Source of the DNA: Herbaspirillum sp. SJZ107
GTDB lineage: Bacteria > Pseudomonadota > Gammaproteobacteria > Burkholderiales > Burkholderiaceae_D
DNA: 64,000 nt
Direction of reading: 5' to 3'
NCBI RefSeq assembly: GCF_006715485.1
Contig: NZ_VFNH01000001.1
Location: forward strand, 1,736,001-1,800,000
Below, piece by piece: positions 56,486-64,000 of this stretch (position 1 is the stretch's first letter; every line of letters starts with the position of its first letter). Below the pieces are notes generated by a model. The model made no database searches. It saw only the letters and a program-made list of their open reading frames with translations, and was not told where the DNA came from. The position numbers and the translations under genes are program-made.

Positions 56486-58915
56486 TCAGAGCGTGATCGC
56501 CACTTTCATGGCCGTGTCCGCCAACGGCGGCAGGCTCACTTGCAGCAGGCGGCGCTTGGCGTCCCAGGCGAAGGGCAGCGATTTTCCGGCGGCCTGGACC
56601 GCGCGCGGACGGGTGCCGACGTTGTGCACCTTGAGCGCAAACGTGCGCGCCATCGGCGTCGCGTTCGCACCACGTTCCGTGCGCAAACCGATCTCCAGCC
56701 GGCCGGCGCTGGCCTCGCTGTCGAAACGCACCAGCGTCGACTGGCCCGACTCGAAGGCGTGGGCAGTCGTGCCGTCGTCGTCGTAGAGCTGGCCCGACGC
56801 GGCGCTCACCGAGGCGTCATGGTAATAGTGCAGCTCGAGCGCCTTGCCGCTGTAGTCCTGGGTGCTGTGCCCGACCCTGGCCAGCGGGATGAAGGCGCCG
56901 GCGCGCACGTAGGTCGGGATGTGCTCTGGCACCGTCGATACCGTCTCCAGGATGCCGCCGCGGTGCGGCTGGTCGCTGTAGAAGTCGAACCAGACGCCGC
57001 CCGCCTTGCCGCCCTGGTTCGGGAAATAGACTTCCTTGCGCAGCTGGCCGGCTTCGACCACCGGCGCCACCAGGAAGTCCGGCCCCCACAGGTAGGTGCT
57101 GGAGATGGCCGGGGTCGGCACCATGTCGTTGTCCGGGTCTTCGAACAGCACCGGACGCATCAGCGGCATGCCGGTGCGGCTGTTCTCGAAGGCGGCCGTG
57201 TAGTTATACGGCAGCATCGCGTAGCGCAGGCGCACCGCATCGCGCGCCAGCGCTTTGGTACGCGCCTCGCGGAACACCGGCTCGGCCGGCACCGCTTCCT
57301 GCGCGTGCGGGCGGAAGACCGGCTGGAACACGCCGTACTGCAGCCAGCGCACGTACAGCTCGTCGTCCAGCACCGGCCCGGCAAAGCCGCCCAGGTCCGA
57401 GTGCATGTAGGCCTGGCCCTGCATGCCCATCTGCAGCGAGATCTCCATCTGCGACTGCAGGCCGCCCCAGCCGCGGCTGACGTCGCCCGACCACGGGATC
57501 ATGCCGAAGCGCTGCGAGCCCGAGTAACCCGAGCGCATCAGGATGAAGGGACGCTCCTTCGGGAAGTCGCGCGCGTAGCCGTCGGCGATCAGGTGCGCCC
57601 ATTCGTGGCCGTAGATGTTGTGGACCTCGTCGGCGCTGCCGGTGGCGTGGCGCGCTTCGCTCGGGTGCATCTCCGGTTCGCCCAGATCGCCCCACCAGCC
57701 GGCCACGCCGCCGGCCTTGAGTTCCTTGTAGATGTCCCAGAACCAGCTGCGCGCGGACGGCTTGAAGACGTCGACCAGGCCGGTGTTCCCGAAATAGAAA
57801 TCGAAAGTGAAGGGCTTGCCGTCCTTGTCCGTCGCCAGCACCTGGCGCTCGGCCGCTTCCTGCCAGCGCTTCGAGCTGGTGAGGATGAAGGGTTCGGTGA
57901 TGACGACGGTCTTGACGCCCTGGCGCGAGAAATCGGCCATCATCTTTTCGGCGTGCGGGAAGCTGTCGCGGTCCCAGGCCAGGTTGCCCATCGTCCCCTT
58001 GACCGTCTTGCCGAACCAGTACAGGTCGAGCACGACGGCGTCGAGCGGGATGTCGTCCTGGCGGAACTTGTCGACCACGGCGCGCGTCTCGGCTTCGCTG
58101 TGGTAGCCGAAACGGCTGGCGAAATTGCCGAAGGCCCAGCGCGGCGGCAGCGGCTGGCGCCCGGTCAGGCGGGTGATGCCGTCCATGACCCCGGCCCAGT
58201 CATCGCCGGCCACCACCTGGTAGGTCTTGCGGCCGCCCGGCGTTTCGAATCGCAGCGTGCCGTCCTTGTGGCTGTCCATGTCGAGCCAGCCGGCCTGCGG
58301 ATTGTCGAAGTGGATCGCGTACCTGCGCGAGGACAGCGCCATCGGGATGCCGTAGCCCATCTGCTCGGCGCGGTTGGCGAAGCCGTAGGACGCCTTGTTA
58401 TACAGGCGGAAGCGGTTGCCGCGGCGATTCATGCCGACCGCGCGCGAACCCGCCCCGTACAGCGCCTCGTCGGGCTCGAGCGCGAATTCGACCGCCTGCA
58501 GGCTGTCGGCCCGGCCGAACCCGCCCTTTTCCGCGACCAGCGGCTTGCCCTTGTAGCTGTAGCTGATGCGGAACGGGTTCTTGTCGACCGTGACCGTGAT
58601 GCCATCCGTGACCAGTTCGATGCGGGTGCCGGCATCCTTCACCGTCGCCTTGGGCGCGCCCAGGGTCAGCACGACGGCGTGCGAGGCCGGCACCGGCGCG
58701 TCGCCACGGGCCACGAAGGTGGTTTCGACGATGTTCGGCGCGTAGGGCTTGATGACGTAGCGGCCGTCGCTGGTGGCGATCTCGAGGCCGGCACCGTCGC
58801 CGCTGAAGCTCTGGAAGGTGCGCTGGGCGTTCTGGGCTGCCGCGAGCGGGCTGGCGCCAAGGGCGGCGACGGCGGACAGGGTCCAGGCCAGCCGGTAAAA
58901 GGTGGGAGTGGTCAT
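56486..58915 (-). CDS. Secreted GH31 alpha-glycosidase
   Basis: This 809-residue glycoside hydrolase has a signal peptide (AALGASPLAAAQ) and the GH31 order: N-terminal beta-sandwich, TIM barrel, and C-terminal beta domains. The nucleophile Asp410 is in GGVAGWWGDLGEPEMHP and the acid/base Asp478 in MIPWSGDVSRGWGGLQ. It probably hydrolyses alpha-glucosides or alpha-xylosides outside the cytoplasm. The length is usual for the family. It lies alone, 80 bases from the proline-rich protein and divergent from exonuclease III. Confidence 0.92.
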   Translation of the reverse strand: MTTPTFYRLAWTLSAVAALGASPLAAAQNAQRTFQSFSGDGAGLEIATSDGRYVIKPYAPNIVETTFVARGDAPVPASHAVVLTLGAPKATVKDAGTRIELVTDGITVTVDKNPFRISYSYKGKPLVAEKGGFGRADSLQAVEFALEPDEALYGAGSRAVGMNRRGNRFRLYNKASYGFANRAEQMGYGIPMALSSRRYAIHFDNPQAGWLDMDSHKDGTLRFETPGGRKTYQVVAGDDWAGVMDGITRLTGRQPLPPRWAFGNFASRFGYHSEAETRAVVDKFRQDDIPLDAVVLDLYWFGKTVKGTMGNLAWDRDSFPHAEKMMADFSRQGVKTVVITEPFILTSSKRWQEAAERQVLATDKDGKPFTFDFYFGNTGLVDVFKPSARSWFWDIYKELKAGGVAGWWGDLGEPEMHPSEARHATGSADEVHNIYGHEWAHLIADGYARDFPKERPFILMRSGYSGSQRFGMIPWSGDVSRGWGGLQSQMEISLQMGMQGQAYMHSDLGGFAGPVLDDELYVRWLQYGVFQPVFRPHAQEAVPAEPVFREARTKALARDAVRLRYAMLPYNYTAAFENSRTGMPLMRPVLFEDPDNDMVPTPAISSTYLWGPDFLVAPVVEAGQLRKEVYFPNQGGKAGGVWFDFYSDQPHRGGILETVSTVPEHIPTYVRAGAFIPLARVGHSTQDYSGKALELHYYHDASVSAASGQLYDDDGTTAHAFESGQSTLVRFDSEASAGRLEIGLRTERGANATPMARTFALKVHNVGTRPRAVQAAGKSLPFAWDAKRRLLQVSLPPLADTAMKVAITL

Positions 58916-59123: not shown

Positions 59124-59903
59124 ATGCGCGTCGCCACATTCAACGTCAACGGCATCGGCGCCCGCATCGGCGCCCTGCTGCAATGGCTCGACGAAACCCA
59201 ACCCGATGTCGCCTGCCTGCAGGAGCTGAAGGCGCCGCAGGAAAAATTCCCCGAAGCCGCCATCAGAGAGGCCGGCTACTACCCGATCTGGCACGGCCAG
59301 AAAAGCTGGAACGGGGTCGCGATCCTGGCGCGCGGGGTGGAACCGCAGGAAATCACGCGCGGCCTCCCGGGCGACCCGACGGACGAACAGAGCCGCTACC
59401 TCGAAGCAGCGGTGGGCGGCATCCTGATCGCCTGCCTGTACCTGCCGAACGGGAACCCGGCGCCCGGTCCCAAGTTCGACTACAAGCTGGCCTGGTTCGA
59501 GCGCTTCCACAAGCGCGCGCAGGAACTGATGGACAGCGGCGCGCCGGTGATCCTGTGCGGCGACTACAACGTGATCCCGACCGAGCGCGACGTCTACAAG
59601 CCCGAGCGCTGGGTCGACGATGCCCTGTTCCGTCCCGAGTCGCGCGCCGCCTACCGCAAGCTGCTCGACGCCGGCTGGTACGACGCGCTGCGCGAGACGC
59701 ATCCCGATGAAACCATCTTCACCTTCTACGATTACATGCGCGACGCCTATGGCCGCAATGCCGGCCTGCGCATCGACCACCTGCTGCTCAGCCCCAAGCT
59801 GGTGCCGCACCTGAAGACGGCCGGCACCGACCACGCGGTGCGCGGCCGCGAGAAGCCGAGCGACCACGTGCCGACCTGGGTCGAGCTGGACTGGCCGGCC
59901 TGA
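59124..59903 (+). CDS. xth: Exodeoxyribonuclease III
   Basis: This 259-residue DNA repair enzyme has the endonuclease/exonuclease/phosphatase fold: ATFNVNGIGARIGALL, CLQELKAPQEKFP, LIACLYLPNGNPAPGP, ILCGDYNVIPTERD, LRIDHLLLSPKL and KPSDHVPTWVEL with the catalytic histidine. It cleaves at abasic sites and trims 3' ends. The ATG of MRVATFN with CAGGAG upstream was chosen over a longer start. The gene ends seven bases before the TetR stop on the opposite strand. Confidence 0.95.
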   Translation: MRVATFNVNGIGARIGALLQWLDETQPDVACLQELKAPQEKFPEAAIREAGYYPIWHGQKSWNGVAILARGVEPQEITRGLPGDPTDEQSRYLEAAVGGILIACLYLPNGNPAPGPKFDYKLAWFERFHKRAQELMDSGAPVILCGDYNVIPTERDVYKPERWVDDALFRPESRAAYRKLLDAGWYDALRETHPDETIFTFYDYMRDAYGRNAGLRIDHLLLSPKLVPHLKTAGTDHAVRGREKPSDHVPTWVELDWPA

Positions 59904-59910
59904 GCCTGGC

Positions 59911-60507
59911 CTACGGCATACTGAGCCGCAGCGCGCTGTCGGTGACGCGCTCGATGTCCGGCGTATAGCCGTCCTCGATCCAGCGCAGGGCGATGTGAAT
60001 GACGCCACCGACTACGCCGGCCTGCAGCAAGGGGTCGGGCGGCAGCTCCGAGGGCACCATGCTGGATACCTGCTCGCCGATGGCGCGCAGGGCCGTGTCG
60101 AAGGCCTTGTCGACGGAGCGGCTGACGCCGCGGATCTCCACCAGGAACACGCGGGCGGAACGCGGGTCGCGCTGGAGGGCCGCAAAATAGGCGTGCAGCA
60201 TCGCACGGGCACGCGTCTCGGGATCGGGTCCGGCTGCGCGGGCGGCAGCGACGATTTCGTCCAGCACGGCATAGGTGACCGCATTGAAACAGGCGATCAG
60301 CAGTTCTTCGCTGTTGGCGAAGGATTCGTAGAAATAGCGTTCGGTGAGGCCGGCCGCTTCGCACACGGCTTTCACGGTCGCCTGGCGGTAGCCGCGCTCG
60401 CCGTAGACGGCGACGCCGGCAGAGATCAGCTGGGCACGGCGCTGGGCACGCCGCTCGTCCTGGGGGATGCCGCGATAGGGCCGGGCTGGGGTGGGTTCTG
60501 GAGGCAT
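59911..60507 (-). CDS. TetR family transcriptional regulator
   Basis: This protein of about 198 residues has the TetR helix-turn-helix (ERGYRQATVKAVCEAAGLTERYFYESFANSEELL) and a helical ligand domain (VTYAVLDEIVAAARAAG, AMLHAYFAALQRDPRSARVF). The most likely start is MPPEPTPARP at 60507; another ATG at 60540 would add 11 residues. Next to it, a monooxygenase-SDR-hydrolase operon is transcribed away from it, and a dyad at 60544-60563 lies between, so it is the expected repressor of that operon, responding to its substrate. Confidence 0.86.
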   Translation of the reverse strand: MPPEPTPARPYRGIPQDERRAQRRAQLISAGVAVYGERGYRQATVKAVCEAAGLTERYFYESFANSEELLIACFNAVTYAVLDEIVAAARAAGPDPETRARAMLHAYFAALQRDPRSARVFLVEIRGVSRSVDKAFDTALRAIGEQVSSMVPSELPPDPLLQAGVVGGVIHIALRWIEDGYTPDIERVTDSALRLSMP

Positions 60508-60543
60508 TCCTCTATTTTGGCACAGAATATTGTCTTTCATATT

Positions 60544-60572
60544 TTGACAATGTAGAGTGTCAATCTTAAAAA
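60544..60572 (+). promoter_or_regulatory. Candidate promoter and TetR operator of the monooxygenase operon
   Basis: TTGACA at 60544-60549 matches the -35 consensus; 17 bases later TAAAAA (60567-60572) is a fair -10. The -35 forms the left arm of an inverted repeat TTGACA / TGTCAA (60544-60563), as expected where a TetR dimer blocks polymerase. The operon's ATG lies at 60594. Confidence 0.55.
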
Positions 60573-60593
60573 TCGACAAGATCCCGAGACAGC

Positions 60594-62060
60594 ATGTCCC
60601 CCAACCCCGAACCGCTCGACGTACTGATCGTCGGCGCCGGCCTGTCCGGCATCGGCGCCGCCTGGCATCTCCAGAAGCGCTGCCCCGGCAAGACCTATGC
60701 CGTGCTCGAGTCGCGCGCCGCCATCGGCGGCACCTGGGACCTGTTCCGCTACCCCGGCGTGCGCTCCGATTCCGACATGTACACGCTCGGCTACGGCTTC
60801 CAGCCCTGGACCGCGGGCAAGGCGATCGCCGACGGCTCCTCGATCCGCCGCTACATCGAAGACACGGCGCGCAAGAGCGGCATCGACCGCCACATCCGCT
60901 TCAACCACAAGGTGGTGGGCGCGCACTGGTCGAGCAGCGAGGCGCTGTGGCGCGTCGAGGTCGAGGTCGAGGGTGCGGTCCAGGTCCTGCAGACCCGCTT
61001 CCTCTATATGTGCAGCGGCTACTACAGCTACGACGAAGCCTACCGTCCCACGTTCTCCGGCGAGGACAACTTCCGCGGCCGCATCGTGCAGCCGCAGTTC
61101 TGGCCGCGCGACCTCGAGTGGCGCGGCAAGCGCGTCGTGGTGGTCGGCAGCGGCGCCACCGCGGTGACGCTGGTGCCGTCGATGGCCGCGGATGCGGCGC
61201 ACGTCACCATGCTGCAGCGTTCCCCGACCTACATCGTCAGCCGCCCGTCCGAATACCGCTTCGCACAGAAGTACCGGCGCTGGCTGCCCGAAAAGGCGGC
61301 CTACCTGGCGACCCGCTGGCGCGTGATCGTCGAAAGCATGCTGCTGTACCGCGTGACGCGCGCCAAGCCCGAACTGGCCAAGCAGAAGATCGTCGCCATG
61401 GCGCGGCGCCAGCTGGGTCCAGGCTACGACGTCGATACCCATTTCACGCCGCGCTACAAGCCCTGGGACCAGCGCGTGTGCGTGGTGCCGGACGGCGACC
61501 TGTTCAAGGCGATCCGGAGCGGGCGCGCCTCGGTCGTCACCGACCACATCGAGCGCTTCGACGAACACGGCCTGCTGCTGAAATCCGGGCAGGCGCTGGC
61601 CGCCGACATCGTCGTGCTGGCGACCGGCCTCAAGGTGAAACTCATGGGCGGCATCGCCATCACGGTCGACGGCCAGCCGTTCAAGGCGAACGACGCCATG
61701 TCGTACAAGGGCATGATGCTCAGCGGCCTGCCCAACTGCGTGATGACCTTCGGCTACACTAACGCTTCCTGGACACTCAAGGCCGACCTGACCGCCGAAT
61801 ACGTATGCCGCCTGCTGCGCCACATGGACCGTCACCGTCAAGCCATCGCCGTGGTGCATCGCGAGCCCGGGGTCGAGCCGCGGCCCTTCCTCGGCTTTAC
61901 CTCGGGCTACGTGGAGCGCGCCGCGCGCGAGCTGCCGCAGCAGGGTTCGCGCGCGCCCTGGCACGTCTACCAGAACTACCTGCAGGACATGCTCATCATC
62001 CGTTTCGGCCGCATCGCCGACGGCATCATGCACTTCGGTGCCAAAGGAACCCTGCCATGA
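60594..62060 (+). CDS. Flavin-containing monooxygenase, Baeyer-Villiger type (EthA-like)
   Basis: This 488-residue enzyme has two Rossmann folds: FAD-binding VLIVGAGLSGIGAAWHLQ near the start and NADPH-binding VVVVGSGATAVTLVP. The second Baeyer-Villiger signature is present (GGTWDLFRYPGVRSDSD), as is VLATGLKVKL. The first fingerprint, FxGxxxH-type, is FSGEDNFRGRIVQPQFWP; where relatives have histidine this protein has glutamine (Gln166). Such enzymes insert oxygen next to ketones to make esters or lactones, or oxidise N/S groups. The gene overlaps the SDR start (ATGA), so the operon is coupled. Confidence 0.9.
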   Translation: MSPNPEPLDVLIVGAGLSGIGAAWHLQKRCPGKTYAVLESRAAIGGTWDLFRYPGVRSDSDMYTLGYGFQPWTAGKAIADGSSIRRYIEDTARKSGIDRHIRFNHKVVGAHWSSSEALWRVEVEVEGAVQVLQTRFLYMCSGYYSYDEAYRPTFSGEDNFRGRIVQPQFWPRDLEWRGKRVVVVGSGATAVTLVPSMAADAAHVTMLQRSPTYIVSRPSEYRFAQKYRRWLPEKAAYLATRWRVIVESMLLYRVTRAKPELAKQKIVAMARRQLGPGYDVDTHFTPRYKPWDQRVCVVPDGDLFKAIRSGRASVVTDHIERFDEHGLLLKSGQALAADIVVLATGLKVKLMGGIAITVDGQPFKANDAMSYKGMMLSGLPNCVMTFGYTNASWTLKADLTAEYVCRLLRHMDRHRQAIAVVHREPGVEPRPFLGFTSGYVERAARELPQQGSRAPWHVYQNYLQDMLIIRFGRIADGIMHFGAKGTLP

Positions 62061-62881
62061 CGTCTTCCGCACTCAACCTGAACAACCGCGTCGCCGTCGT
62101 CACCGGCGCCGGCGGCGGCATCGGCCGCGCCACCGCGCTGGCGCTGGCGCGGCGCGGCTGCCACCTGGCGCTGGCCGACATCGACGACACCGGCGTCCAG
62201 GCCACCGCGCGCGACGCCCAGAGCCTGGGCGTGCGCGCGAGTGCGCACCGCCTCGACGTCGCCGACCGCGCCGCCGTCGCCGCCTTCCCGCAACTGGTGG
62301 AGAGCGTGCACAAGCGCGTCGACCTGTTGATGAACAACGCCGGCGTGGCACTCGGCGGCACCTTCGAACAGGTGTCCGCCGACGATTTCGACTGGCTGAT
62401 GGAGGTCAACTTCCACGCCGTGGTGCGCATGACGCGCGCCTTCCTGCCTAACCTGCACCGCAGCGACGACGGCCGCATCGTCAACGTCTCCAGCATCTAC
62501 GGCATCATCACGCCGCCCGGCCAGGCCGCCTACGCCGCCAGCAAGTTCGCGGTGCGCGGCTTTTCCAACGTGCTGCGCAACGAACTCGAAGGCAGCAGCG
62601 TCGGCGTGTCGGTGGTGCACCCGGGCGGGGTCGCCACCTCGATCGCGAAGAATGCGCGCATCCCGGCCAGCGCCCCGCGCGAGGAAGTGGAACGCGGCCG
62701 CAAGAACATGGAAAAGCTGCTGCGCATGCAGCCGGACGAAGCCGGCGAGATCATCGTGCGCGGCATCGAGAAGCGCCAGGCGCGCATCCTGGTCGGCAGC
62801 GACGCCAAGGCCGCGGCGCTACTGGAACGCCTGGCGCCGGTCGGCTACTGGAACCTGCTCAAGAAGGCGATGAAACGATGA
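62057..62881 (+). CDS. SDR family NAD(P)-dependent oxidoreductase
   Basis: This 274-residue short-chain dehydrogenase has the cofactor motif VTGAGGGIGRATAL, NNAGVALGG, the catalytic serine in VNVSSIYG and the YAASK motif. It probably interconverts a secondary alcohol and ketone. The ATG at 62057 overlaps the monooxygenase stop by four bases, and the gene overlaps the hydrolase start by four. Upstream in-frame starts would lie inside the monooxygenase gene. Confidence 0.9.
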   Translation: MTSSALNLNNRVAVVTGAGGGIGRATALALARRGCHLALADIDDTGVQATARDAQSLGVRASAHRLDVADRAAVAAFPQLVESVHKRVDLLMNNAGVALGGTFEQVSADDFDWLMEVNFHAVVRMTRAFLPNLHRSDDGRIVNVSSIYGIITPPGQAAYAASKFAVRGFSNVLRNELEGSSVGVSVVHPGGVATSIAKNARIPASAPREEVERGRKNMEKLLRMQPDEAGEIIVRGIEKRQARILVGSDAKAAALLERLAPVGYWNLLKKAMKR

Positions 62882-63870
62882 GCATCGTGCTGACACTCCT
62901 CGGTTTCCTGGGCGGCATCGTGGTGGCCGGACTGGCCGGCTGCTGGCTGATCACGCTGGCGCTCAAGCGCAAGGTCGAATCGCTGCTGCCGCCGAAAGGC
63001 CGCTTCGTCGACGTGCCGGGAGCCCGCCTGCACGTGCGCGAGTTCGGCGAGGGGCCGGCAATCCTGATGATCCACGGGCTGGGCGGCCAGATGGCGCACT
63101 TCACCTATGCCGTCACGGCCCGGCTGGCCGGACGCTTCCGCGTGGTGGTGGTCGACCGTCCGGGCAGCGGCTGGTCCGCGGCAAGCGGCGGCGCCGACCT
63201 GTCGACCCAGGCGGCCGCGCTGGCGGCCCTGACCGAGCGCCTGGCCCTGGGCCGGCCGCTGGTGGTCGGCCACTCGCTCGGCGGCGCGGTCGCGCTGGCA
63301 CTGGCGCTGGAGCACCCGGACCGGGTGTCCGGCCTGGCGCTGCTGGCGCCGCTCACCCACATGCCCGAAGGCGACCGCGTCCCGGACGTGTTCAAGGGCC
63401 TGATGGTCCGTTCGGCGCCGCTGCGCACGCTGCTGGCCTGGACCCTGGCCACGCCGCGCTCGATCGGCAAGAGCAAGCAGACCCTGGACCAGGTGTTCGG
63501 CCCGGACAAGGTACCCAACGATTTCGGGATGCGCGGCGGCGGCCTGCTGTCGCTGCGCCCGGCCGCCTACCTGGCGGCGTCGAGCGACCTGCAGGCCCTG
63601 GAGGGGCGCCTGCCGCTGCAGCAGGGGCGCTACGGCGAGCTGCGCCTGCCGCTCGGCATCCTGTTCGGCCGCGACGACCGCATCCTCGACTGGCGCCACA
63701 ACGGCCAGGCGCTGGCGGACAAGGTCGACGGTGCGCGGCTGGAACTGGTCGATGGCGGCCACATGCTGCCGGTGACGAAGCCGGACGCCTGCGTCGCCTT
63801 CATCGAGCAGATGGCGCAGGCCAGCGGCCTCGCCGGCGGTGCTGCCCAACAGGCTGCCGGCGCGCGCTGA
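62878..63870 (+). CDS. Alpha/beta hydrolase
   Basis: This 330-residue hydrolase has an N-terminal membrane helix (LTLLGFLGGIVVAGLAGCWL) and the alpha/beta fold with oxyanion HG (LMIHGLGGQMAHF), nucleophile serine in VVGHSLGGAVALAL, aspartate in LFGRDDRILDW and histidine in DGGHMLPVTK. It would hydrolyse an ester at the membrane face. It is the last gene of the TetR-controlled operon and fits as the step after the Baeyer-Villiger enzyme, splitting the ester into acid and alcohol. Confidence 0.88.
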   Translation: MSIVLTLLGFLGGIVVAGLAGCWLITLALKRKVESLLPPKGRFVDVPGARLHVREFGEGPAILMIHGLGGQMAHFTYAVTARLAGRFRVVVVDRPGSGWSAASGGADLSTQAAALAALTERLALGRPLVVGHSLGGAVALALALEHPDRVSGLALLAPLTHMPEGDRVPDVFKGLMVRSAPLRTLLAWTLATPRSIGKSKQTLDQVFGPDKVPNDFGMRGGGLLSLRPAAYLAASSDLQALEGRLPLQQGRYGELRLPLGILFGRDDRILDWRHNGQALADKVDGARLELVDGGHMLPVTKPDACVAFIEQMAQASGLAGGAAQQAAGAR

Positions 63871-63897: not shown

Positions 63898-64000
63898 ATG
63901 GACCTCGACCGCATACTCATCGCCACCGGCGCCATCTCCGCCTTCCTCGGCGTCGGCCTCGGCGCTTTCGGCGCACACGGCCTGCGCAAGCGCCTCTCTG
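63898..64000 (+). CDS. DUF423 family membrane protein, N-terminal part
   Basis: Only 34 residues are visible before the window ends: MDLDRILIATGAISAFLGV and then GLGAFGAHGLRKRLS. The GAFGAHGL motif marks DUF423 (YgdD-like) inner-membrane proteins. The function is unknown. It starts 27 bases after the hydrolase stop. Confidence 0.78.
   Translation, partial: MDLDRILIATGAISAFLGVGLGAFGAHGLRKRLS

Follow-up and report, generated by a model that had tools for sequence, protein, structure and literature searches.

The window analysed here, a 64,000-nucleotide stretch of the soil bacterium Herbaspirillum sp. SJZ107 taken from contig C1 of its genome (6.7 Mb), carries at its right end a gene for a TetR-family regulator, head to head with a trio of genes for a Baeyer-Villiger-type flavin monooxygenase (FMO), a short-chain dehydrogenase/reductase (SDR) and an alpha/beta hydrolase. 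The regulator gene is on the minus strand at 59911-60540 (209 amino acids), although its start is uncertain and may lie at 60507 instead of 60540, which would give a protein of 198 amino acids. The FMO (60594-62060; 488 amino acids), the SDR (62057-62881; 274 amino acids) and the hydrolase, which has a hydrophobic N-terminus (62878-63870; 330 amino acids), are all on the plus strand. The Pfam matches, to TetR_N (4.3e-09), FMO-like (7.4e-12), adh_short (8.7e-53) and Abhydrolase_1 (3.7e-25) respectively, all exceed the curated cut-offs and agree with the functions that a previous sequence-only reading of this DNA had given the four genes at family level. The divergent TetR gene and the ATGA overlaps described in that reading are both present, the overlaps being read from the sequence at 62057-62060 between FMO and SDR and at 62878-62881 between SDR and hydrolase. 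The next open reading frame (ORF) begins only after a gap, at about 63900, with the window ending at 64000, and the operon therefore seems to consist of three genes.

The FMO contains two Rossmann motifs of the form GxGxx[G/A] (GAGLSG, residues 14-19, and GSGATA, residues 185-190) and an intact [A/G]GxWxxxx[F/Y]P[G/M]xxxD motif (GGTWDLFRYPGVRSD, residues 45-59). Its AlphaFold2 model has a mean predicted local distance difference test score of 92.4 and matches steroid monooxygenase (4aox) with a Z-score of 31.8 and a phenylacetone monooxygenase mutant (2ylx) with one of 31.7. Among the 50 fold matches listed, 48 are titled Baeyer-Villiger monooxygenase (BVMO), with Z-scores of 29.1-31.8 and approximately 438-458 residues aligned, and the other two are DiatB (8z12, 8z17). 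According to the model the enzyme has the BVMO fold, and a shared fold in itself shows no function. In the SDRs, the motifs TGxxxGIG, N[NS]AG and YxxxK are present in 32 of 33 related sequences scanned, while GHSxGG and a late GH are found in all 34 related hydrolases. A membrane helix had also been proposed for the hydrolase. The hydrophobic N-terminus is borne out, with a mean Kyte-Doolittle value of 2.33 over 19 residues and of 2.08 or more in each of the 34 related hydrolases; the membrane anchor itself is plausible, as judged by hydropathy only and not by a dedicated predictor. A class-wide search with the hydrolase at E 1e-40 matched 2 of 369 genomes, its own included, so the subfamily looks narrow.

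Conservation of the gene order in relatives, which the sequence-only reading had proposed as a check, was examined by scanning contigs for relatives of the FMO, and 70 named loci were obtained. The full order, a minus-strand TetR gene followed by FMO, SDR and hydrolase, occurs in 27 of them, which argues that the four-gene arrangement is not due to chance. All but one of these 27, the exception being Halopseudomonas bauzanensis, fall among 33 loci titled Massilia, Telluria, Noviherbaspirillum, Herminiimonas or, for one locus whose FMO is 96% identical (L097), Burkholderiaceae; the window FMO itself clusters with Massilia (Oxalobacteraceae). The remaining members of this group comprise five loci without an intact SDR (L038, L042, L050, L053 and L066, of which L053 also shows no TetR), one in which the alpha/beta hydrolase is absent (L060), and L097, where the contig begins inside the FMO gene. 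In five of the 37 loci outside the group (L065, L074, L075, L076 and L095) the gene directly after the FMO encodes an SDR or hydrolase with 45% identity or more, and none at that level was found directly after the FMO in the other 32. Within the genus, an FMO match of 61% identity or more is present in 40 of 61 genomes, a count that takes in our own; one of these matches is partial and another, at G038:C1:3624234-3625687, is split over two overlapping frames by a frameshift or an assembly error. The gene junctions are conserved to differing degrees, with ATGA at 17 of 32 FMO/SDR junctions tested (GTGA or TTGA in 11 of the other 15) and at 26 of 30 SDR/hydrolase junctions. NG86 estimates of the ratio of nonsynonymous to synonymous substitution (dN/dS) for FMO, SDR and hydrolase lie between 0.10 and 0.27 across eight close pairs of relatives, a range that omits one value of 0.62 from an SDR remnant.

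Between the TetR and FMO genes lies a predicted TetR operator, the near-palindrome TGACAATGTAGAGTGTCA at 60545-60562 (no strand), of the form TGACA-N8-TGTCA. With at most one mismatch this pattern occurs in 34 of 35 TetR/FMO regions as against 27 of 7000 mononucleotide-shuffled regions, where the regions are those of 34 loci and the window, many of them closely related and not independent, and where the pattern was picked after viewing the same regions and set against a plain base shuffle. The only region to fail is that of L081, whose TetR gene is not upstream of the FMO, and the consensus across regions is TGACAATRTANAGTGTCA. In Cupriavidus campinensis, where the TetR is 61% identical and the FMO is followed by a hydrolase and no SDR, two such sites lie in the gap. 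A consensus scan also found a promoter-like TTGACA-N18-AAAAAT on the plus strand at 60544-60573 (10 of 12 matches), which overlaps the operator; the scan returned 2 sites in the 201-base region compared with a mean of 0.2 in shuffles. As to what the regulator might sense, its NCBIfam matches are weak and far below cut-off, and are led by the acyl-CoA-type regulators FasR and FadR. Against the PDB it matches 41 TetR-type sequences (9e-11 to 1e-3), for the most part across its N-terminal half, and the FasR structure 6o6p matches residues 12-189 with an E-value of 1.9e-08. FasR is described in the accessible part of its report as sensing long acyl-CoA (PMC7382501), and the resemblance to FasR and FadR gives weak support for a fatty effector of this TetR. 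The conserved 18-bp operator offers a sensor that could be used at once to look for the natural inducer and, through it, for the substrate.

The SDR is not a constant member of the trio. Fragments of it persist between FMO and hydrolase in L038, L042 and L050, as seen by eye and, for L042, also by tblastn. The remnants at L042:7461-7664 and L038:7446-7517 are short and reflect differing internal deletions. Relocation of the SDR elsewhere in the genome was considered and rejected: in five SDR-less genomes, one of them a 3.4-Mb metagenome bin (G103) that may be incomplete, identity was at most 41% among the best matches listed, compared with 78-79% in two controls. Since L043, the sister of L042, and the nearest rows to L038 keep the SDR, and L050 sits in another group, parsimony indicates at least three losses. 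Judged by gene content, then, the SDR is optional in the operon. The hydrolase position is also open to change in Noviherbaspirillum humi (L060), where a predicted hydrolase of family PF10118 follows the SDR in the place of the alpha/beta hydrolase and has possibly replaced it. Predicted metal-dependent hydrolases of PF10118 adjoin the operon at L060:8286-9140 and at L082:4994-5962, perhaps standing in for the alpha/beta hydrolase in both.

Further relatives show other arrangements of the same functions. Burkholderia multivorans has the order SDR-FMO-hydrolase, with a TetR gene (34% identical) divergent from the SDR, and in Deinococcus sp. QL22 the TetR gene is divergent from hydrolase-SDR-FMO. 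Deinococcus radiodurans R1 encodes a single protein of 833 amino acids in which the FMO is fused to a hydrolase domain of another family, Abhydrolase_3; the gene, at L133:2933-5434 on plasmid MP1, is annotated only as an alpha/beta hydrolase fold protein. The FMO of Streptomyces sp. NBC_01717 has a 3-hydroxyacyl-CoA dehydrogenase on one side and a hydrolase on the other, a long-chain acyl-CoA ligase coming next and the TetR gene being divergent, and the Halopseudomonas operon is flanked by fadBA-like genes and an acyl-CoA dehydrogenase. On these comparisons the monooxygenase and hydrolase are a steadier shared core than the full trio. Repeated SDR loss together with the hydrolase-monooxygenase fusion points to ester cleavage immediately after ester formation as what is conserved.

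We consider it fairly probable that these genes form a TetR-repressed catabolic operon whose products cleave lipophilic ketones, probably aliphatic ones of medium or long chain. TetR would occupy the palindrome at 60545-60562, so covering and presumably blocking the promoter-like site of the FMO, and would be released on binding a lipophilic effector. The SDR would oxidise a secondary alcohol to a ketone, as an optional step; the FMO, using flavin adenine dinucleotide and NADPH, would by its family and fold insert oxygen beside the carbonyl to give an ester; and the hydrolase, probably membrane-anchored, would split the ester into an alcohol and an acid that could enter beta-oxidation or central metabolism. 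The gene families, their order and overlaps, the conserved operator, selective constraint, the BVMO fold and the recurring linkage of monooxygenase and hydrolase, including their fusion, support this. The lipid-metabolism genes beside the Halopseudomonas and Streptomyces relatives also speak for it. The route from alcohol through ketone and ester to acid plus alcohol, already outlined in the sequence-only reading, agrees with the family chemistry and the comparative genomics, but its first step is optional and its Baeyer-Villiger step is made less certain by a change of histidine to glutamine in the FMO.

Several observations weigh against such a ketone-cleaving operon. The full gene order is missing in 43 of the 70 loci. 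On a Pseudomonas aeruginosa plasmid, a relative with 54% identity lacks a neighbouring SDR, and the closest gene annotated as an alpha/beta hydrolase lies three genes further along, on the opposite strand; L065 (P. profundi), which has an SDR without such a hydrolase, also runs counter to the proposed monooxygenase-hydrolase core. The ORFs flanking the operon seem, by eye and with no search made, to be unrelated to it. A search of the genome with TGACANNNTNNNNTGTCA, allowing one mismatch, gave 18+19 sites compared with 21+28 for the reversed-pattern control, and because operator-like sites are no commoner than in the control, no regulon that would name the pathway was found. One operator-like site (L119) sits between two ORFs that we take to be chemotaxis-like and glutathione-transferase-like. 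Searches of the genome with PF00487 and PF00067, which did not extend to LadA or CYP153, gave nothing recognisable as AlkB or as any other alkane hydroxylase; the two FA_desaturase matches are a DesA-type desaturase and a 323-amino-acid protein of no assigned type. The DesA-family fatty acid desaturase, at L130:1432-2640 on contig C2 of the same genome, has a tail domain common to ISL3 transposases (NF049919). Finally, the BVMO fingerprint FxGxxxHxxxW[P/D] is broken in the FMO (FRGRIVQPQFWP), with Gln166 in the position of the histidine, a change that the sequence-only reading did not mention, and on this account Baeyer-Villiger activity cannot be assumed.

By the strict fingerprint the FMO does not count among the canonical type I BVMOs, despite its fold and other motifs, and yet it may work like one despite Gln166. 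In an alignment of 68 sequences, made up of the window and the 67 loci left when three short rows (L085, L097 and L102) were dropped from the 70, the fingerprint column holds His in 35, Gln in 27, Leu in five and Val in one; the dropped L085 shows His. The glutamine codons, counted from the alignment, are CAG in 26 cases and CAA in one. The 33 rows lacking His are the window, Oxalobacteraceae and two Fibrisoma (Bacteroidota), while His is found in two Massilia (L051 and L061) and in six further plasmid relatives, including Cupriavidus and Burkholderia. On the FMO tree, five changes are needed to account for the four states.

The 33 sequences of the 68 that have lost the histidine sit together on the tree, and this could mean that the FMO has abandoned Baeyer-Villiger chemistry and is an S- or N-oxygenase or else an NADPH oxidase, with the hydrolase and SDR acting on a different, perhaps detoxification, substrate. 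Replacement of this histidine reportedly abolished activity in one studied BVMO. We regard such a change of chemistry as unlikely, given that Asp59, of the motif described above, and Arg294, of a DQR motif, are invariant in all 68 sequences, that the FMO is under purifying selection, and that the hydrolase mostly remains linked to it. By their motifs we take these two residues to be equivalent to Asp66 and Arg337 of phenylacetone monooxygenase, both presumably catalytic. The FMO dN/dS values of 0.12-0.24 over the eight pairs suggest that the non-His variant is constrained and not decaying. In addition OgBVMO, of known structure (8wkc), has Leu in the histidine column of a PDB alignment, although a literature search for its activity found no paper. 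A characterised Rhodococcus BVMO departs from the fingerprint at its last position, according to the accessible part of the report (PMC12724338). A compensating substitution was considered at position 289, which is Lys in 88% of the 33 rows without His and Asn in 27 of the 33 His rows lying outside Massilia, and was rejected; as Lys also occurs in both Massilia that carry His, the position tracks ancestry and no compensation is shown.

More tentatively, and short of calling it probable, we suggest that a functional, selected BVMO lineage in Oxalobacteraceae, and in Fibrisoma probably by transfer, exchanged the supposedly essential fingerprint His for Gln, Leu or Val, and that two Massilia strains either retained His or acquired it again. 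The FMOs of the two Fibrisoma (L054 and L062) are 67-68% identical to that of the window and, at modest support (84/82), cluster with those of Noviherbaspirillum, which makes horizontal transfer their likely origin. Their surroundings yielded no TetR, SDR or hydrolase of the operon type. If a lineage of this kind exists, it would be a natural experiment in which the histidine is dispensable, or in which its replacement tunes NADPH handling, uncoupling, or a shift away from Baeyer-Villiger oxidation; the natural Gln, Leu, Val and His versions would be a ready set for probing the role of the residue. The fingerprint serves to sort BVMOs in genomes, as described in the accessible part of one report (PMC10682829), and a lineage under selection that departs from it would be missed or wrongly dismissed. 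We found no description of the Gln, Leu or Val variants of this lineage, nor of a Massilia operon of the TetR-FMO-SDR-hydrolase type, in a literature from which most subscription papers fell outside the search, and a search on Massilia and Baeyer-Villiger found no paper naming either term in its title or abstract. The fingerprint variant and the conserved operator are the new parts here, the type of operon being already known.

The best reading of how the operon would work is by analogy with the sub-terminal oxidation route of AlmA and the sad cluster. In the accessible parts of the reports AlmA, of Acinetobacter baylyi ADP1 and A. calcoaceticus 21#, is a flavin monooxygenase that converts 2-ketones to esters (C10-C16 in A. 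calcoaceticus; PMC12388405), as is proposed for the window FMO. AlmA, which was compared by description only, is reported there with the His motif where the window FMO has Gln166, and no TetR-FMO-SDR-hydrolase operon is described for it. The window FMO shares 47.5% identity with relatives in A. baumannii whose labels do not name AlmA. The BVMO gene of Pseudomonas fluorescens DSM 50106 is said to lie in a cluster with genes for an alcohol dehydrogenase and an esterase. The sad cluster, with its SadA esterase and SadD BVMO, follows the same logic of secondary alcohol dehydrogenase, BVMO and esterase so far as its accessible description goes, but there it serves sub-terminal alkane oxidation in alkane users, whereas the present genome shows no recognised alkane hydroxylase. 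The BVMO of Pseudomonas fluorescens DSM 50106, likened to the window FMO by description and not by sequence, accepts open-chain C8 and C10 ketones according to the part of the report available (PMC5407406).

Pairing of a BVMO with a hydrolase would fit lactones too, and the hydrolase might open a lactone derived from a cyclic ketone or terpenoid instead of a linear ester; the best P450 of the genome matches terpene-oxidase models, a weak resemblance far below cut-offs. This seems distinctly unlikely to us, as the literature enzymes, which are likened by description without a measure of kinship, act on open-chain ketones in the accessible accounts, and two relatives have fatty-acid neighbours.

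The layout of the proposed ketone-cleaving operon has a parallel in ethR-ethA of Mycobacterium tuberculosis, where, in the partial sources, a TetR-family repressor acts between its own gene and that of a type I BVMO, and a crystal structure of EthR contains hexadecyl octanoate, a linear ester. The window has this layout, its TetR and BVMO-type genes diverging from a gap that holds a palindrome. It differs in that no SDR-hydrolase operon with ethA is described in those sources. The sequence-only reading had pointed instead to the mycobacterial MymA locus, which also has a BVMO gene beside a regulator and one promoter/operator for the operon. This turned out to be a poor match: the accessible text gives mymA seven genes (PMC13234193) with VirS as regulator, as opposed to a TetR_N regulator and three overlapping genes in the window. 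Both the regulator and the gene set thus rule out membership of the mymA type, and in layout, as far as such comparison goes, the window operon resembles ethR-ethA more than mymA. VirS is an AraC-type regulator, and mymA has a role in the remodelling of envelope lipids. That earlier resemblance, and the hydrophobic N-terminus of the hydrolase, would suit a biosynthetic or lipid-modifying operon acting in envelope lipid remodelling, not a catabolic one. We think this very improbable in view of the TetR in place of VirS, the lack of an acyltransferase or acyl-CoA ligase within the three-gene operon, the beta-oxidation neighbours in Halopseudomonas and Streptomyces, and the patchy presence within the genus (40 of 61 genomes).

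To the left of the TetR gene, the ORF at 59124-59903 is one that we take, by its look, to be an exodeoxyribonuclease III. Further left, on the minus strand at 56486-58915, is a large ORF of 809 amino acids, presumably, from its appearance and with no search made, an alpha-glucosidase of glycoside hydrolase family 31.

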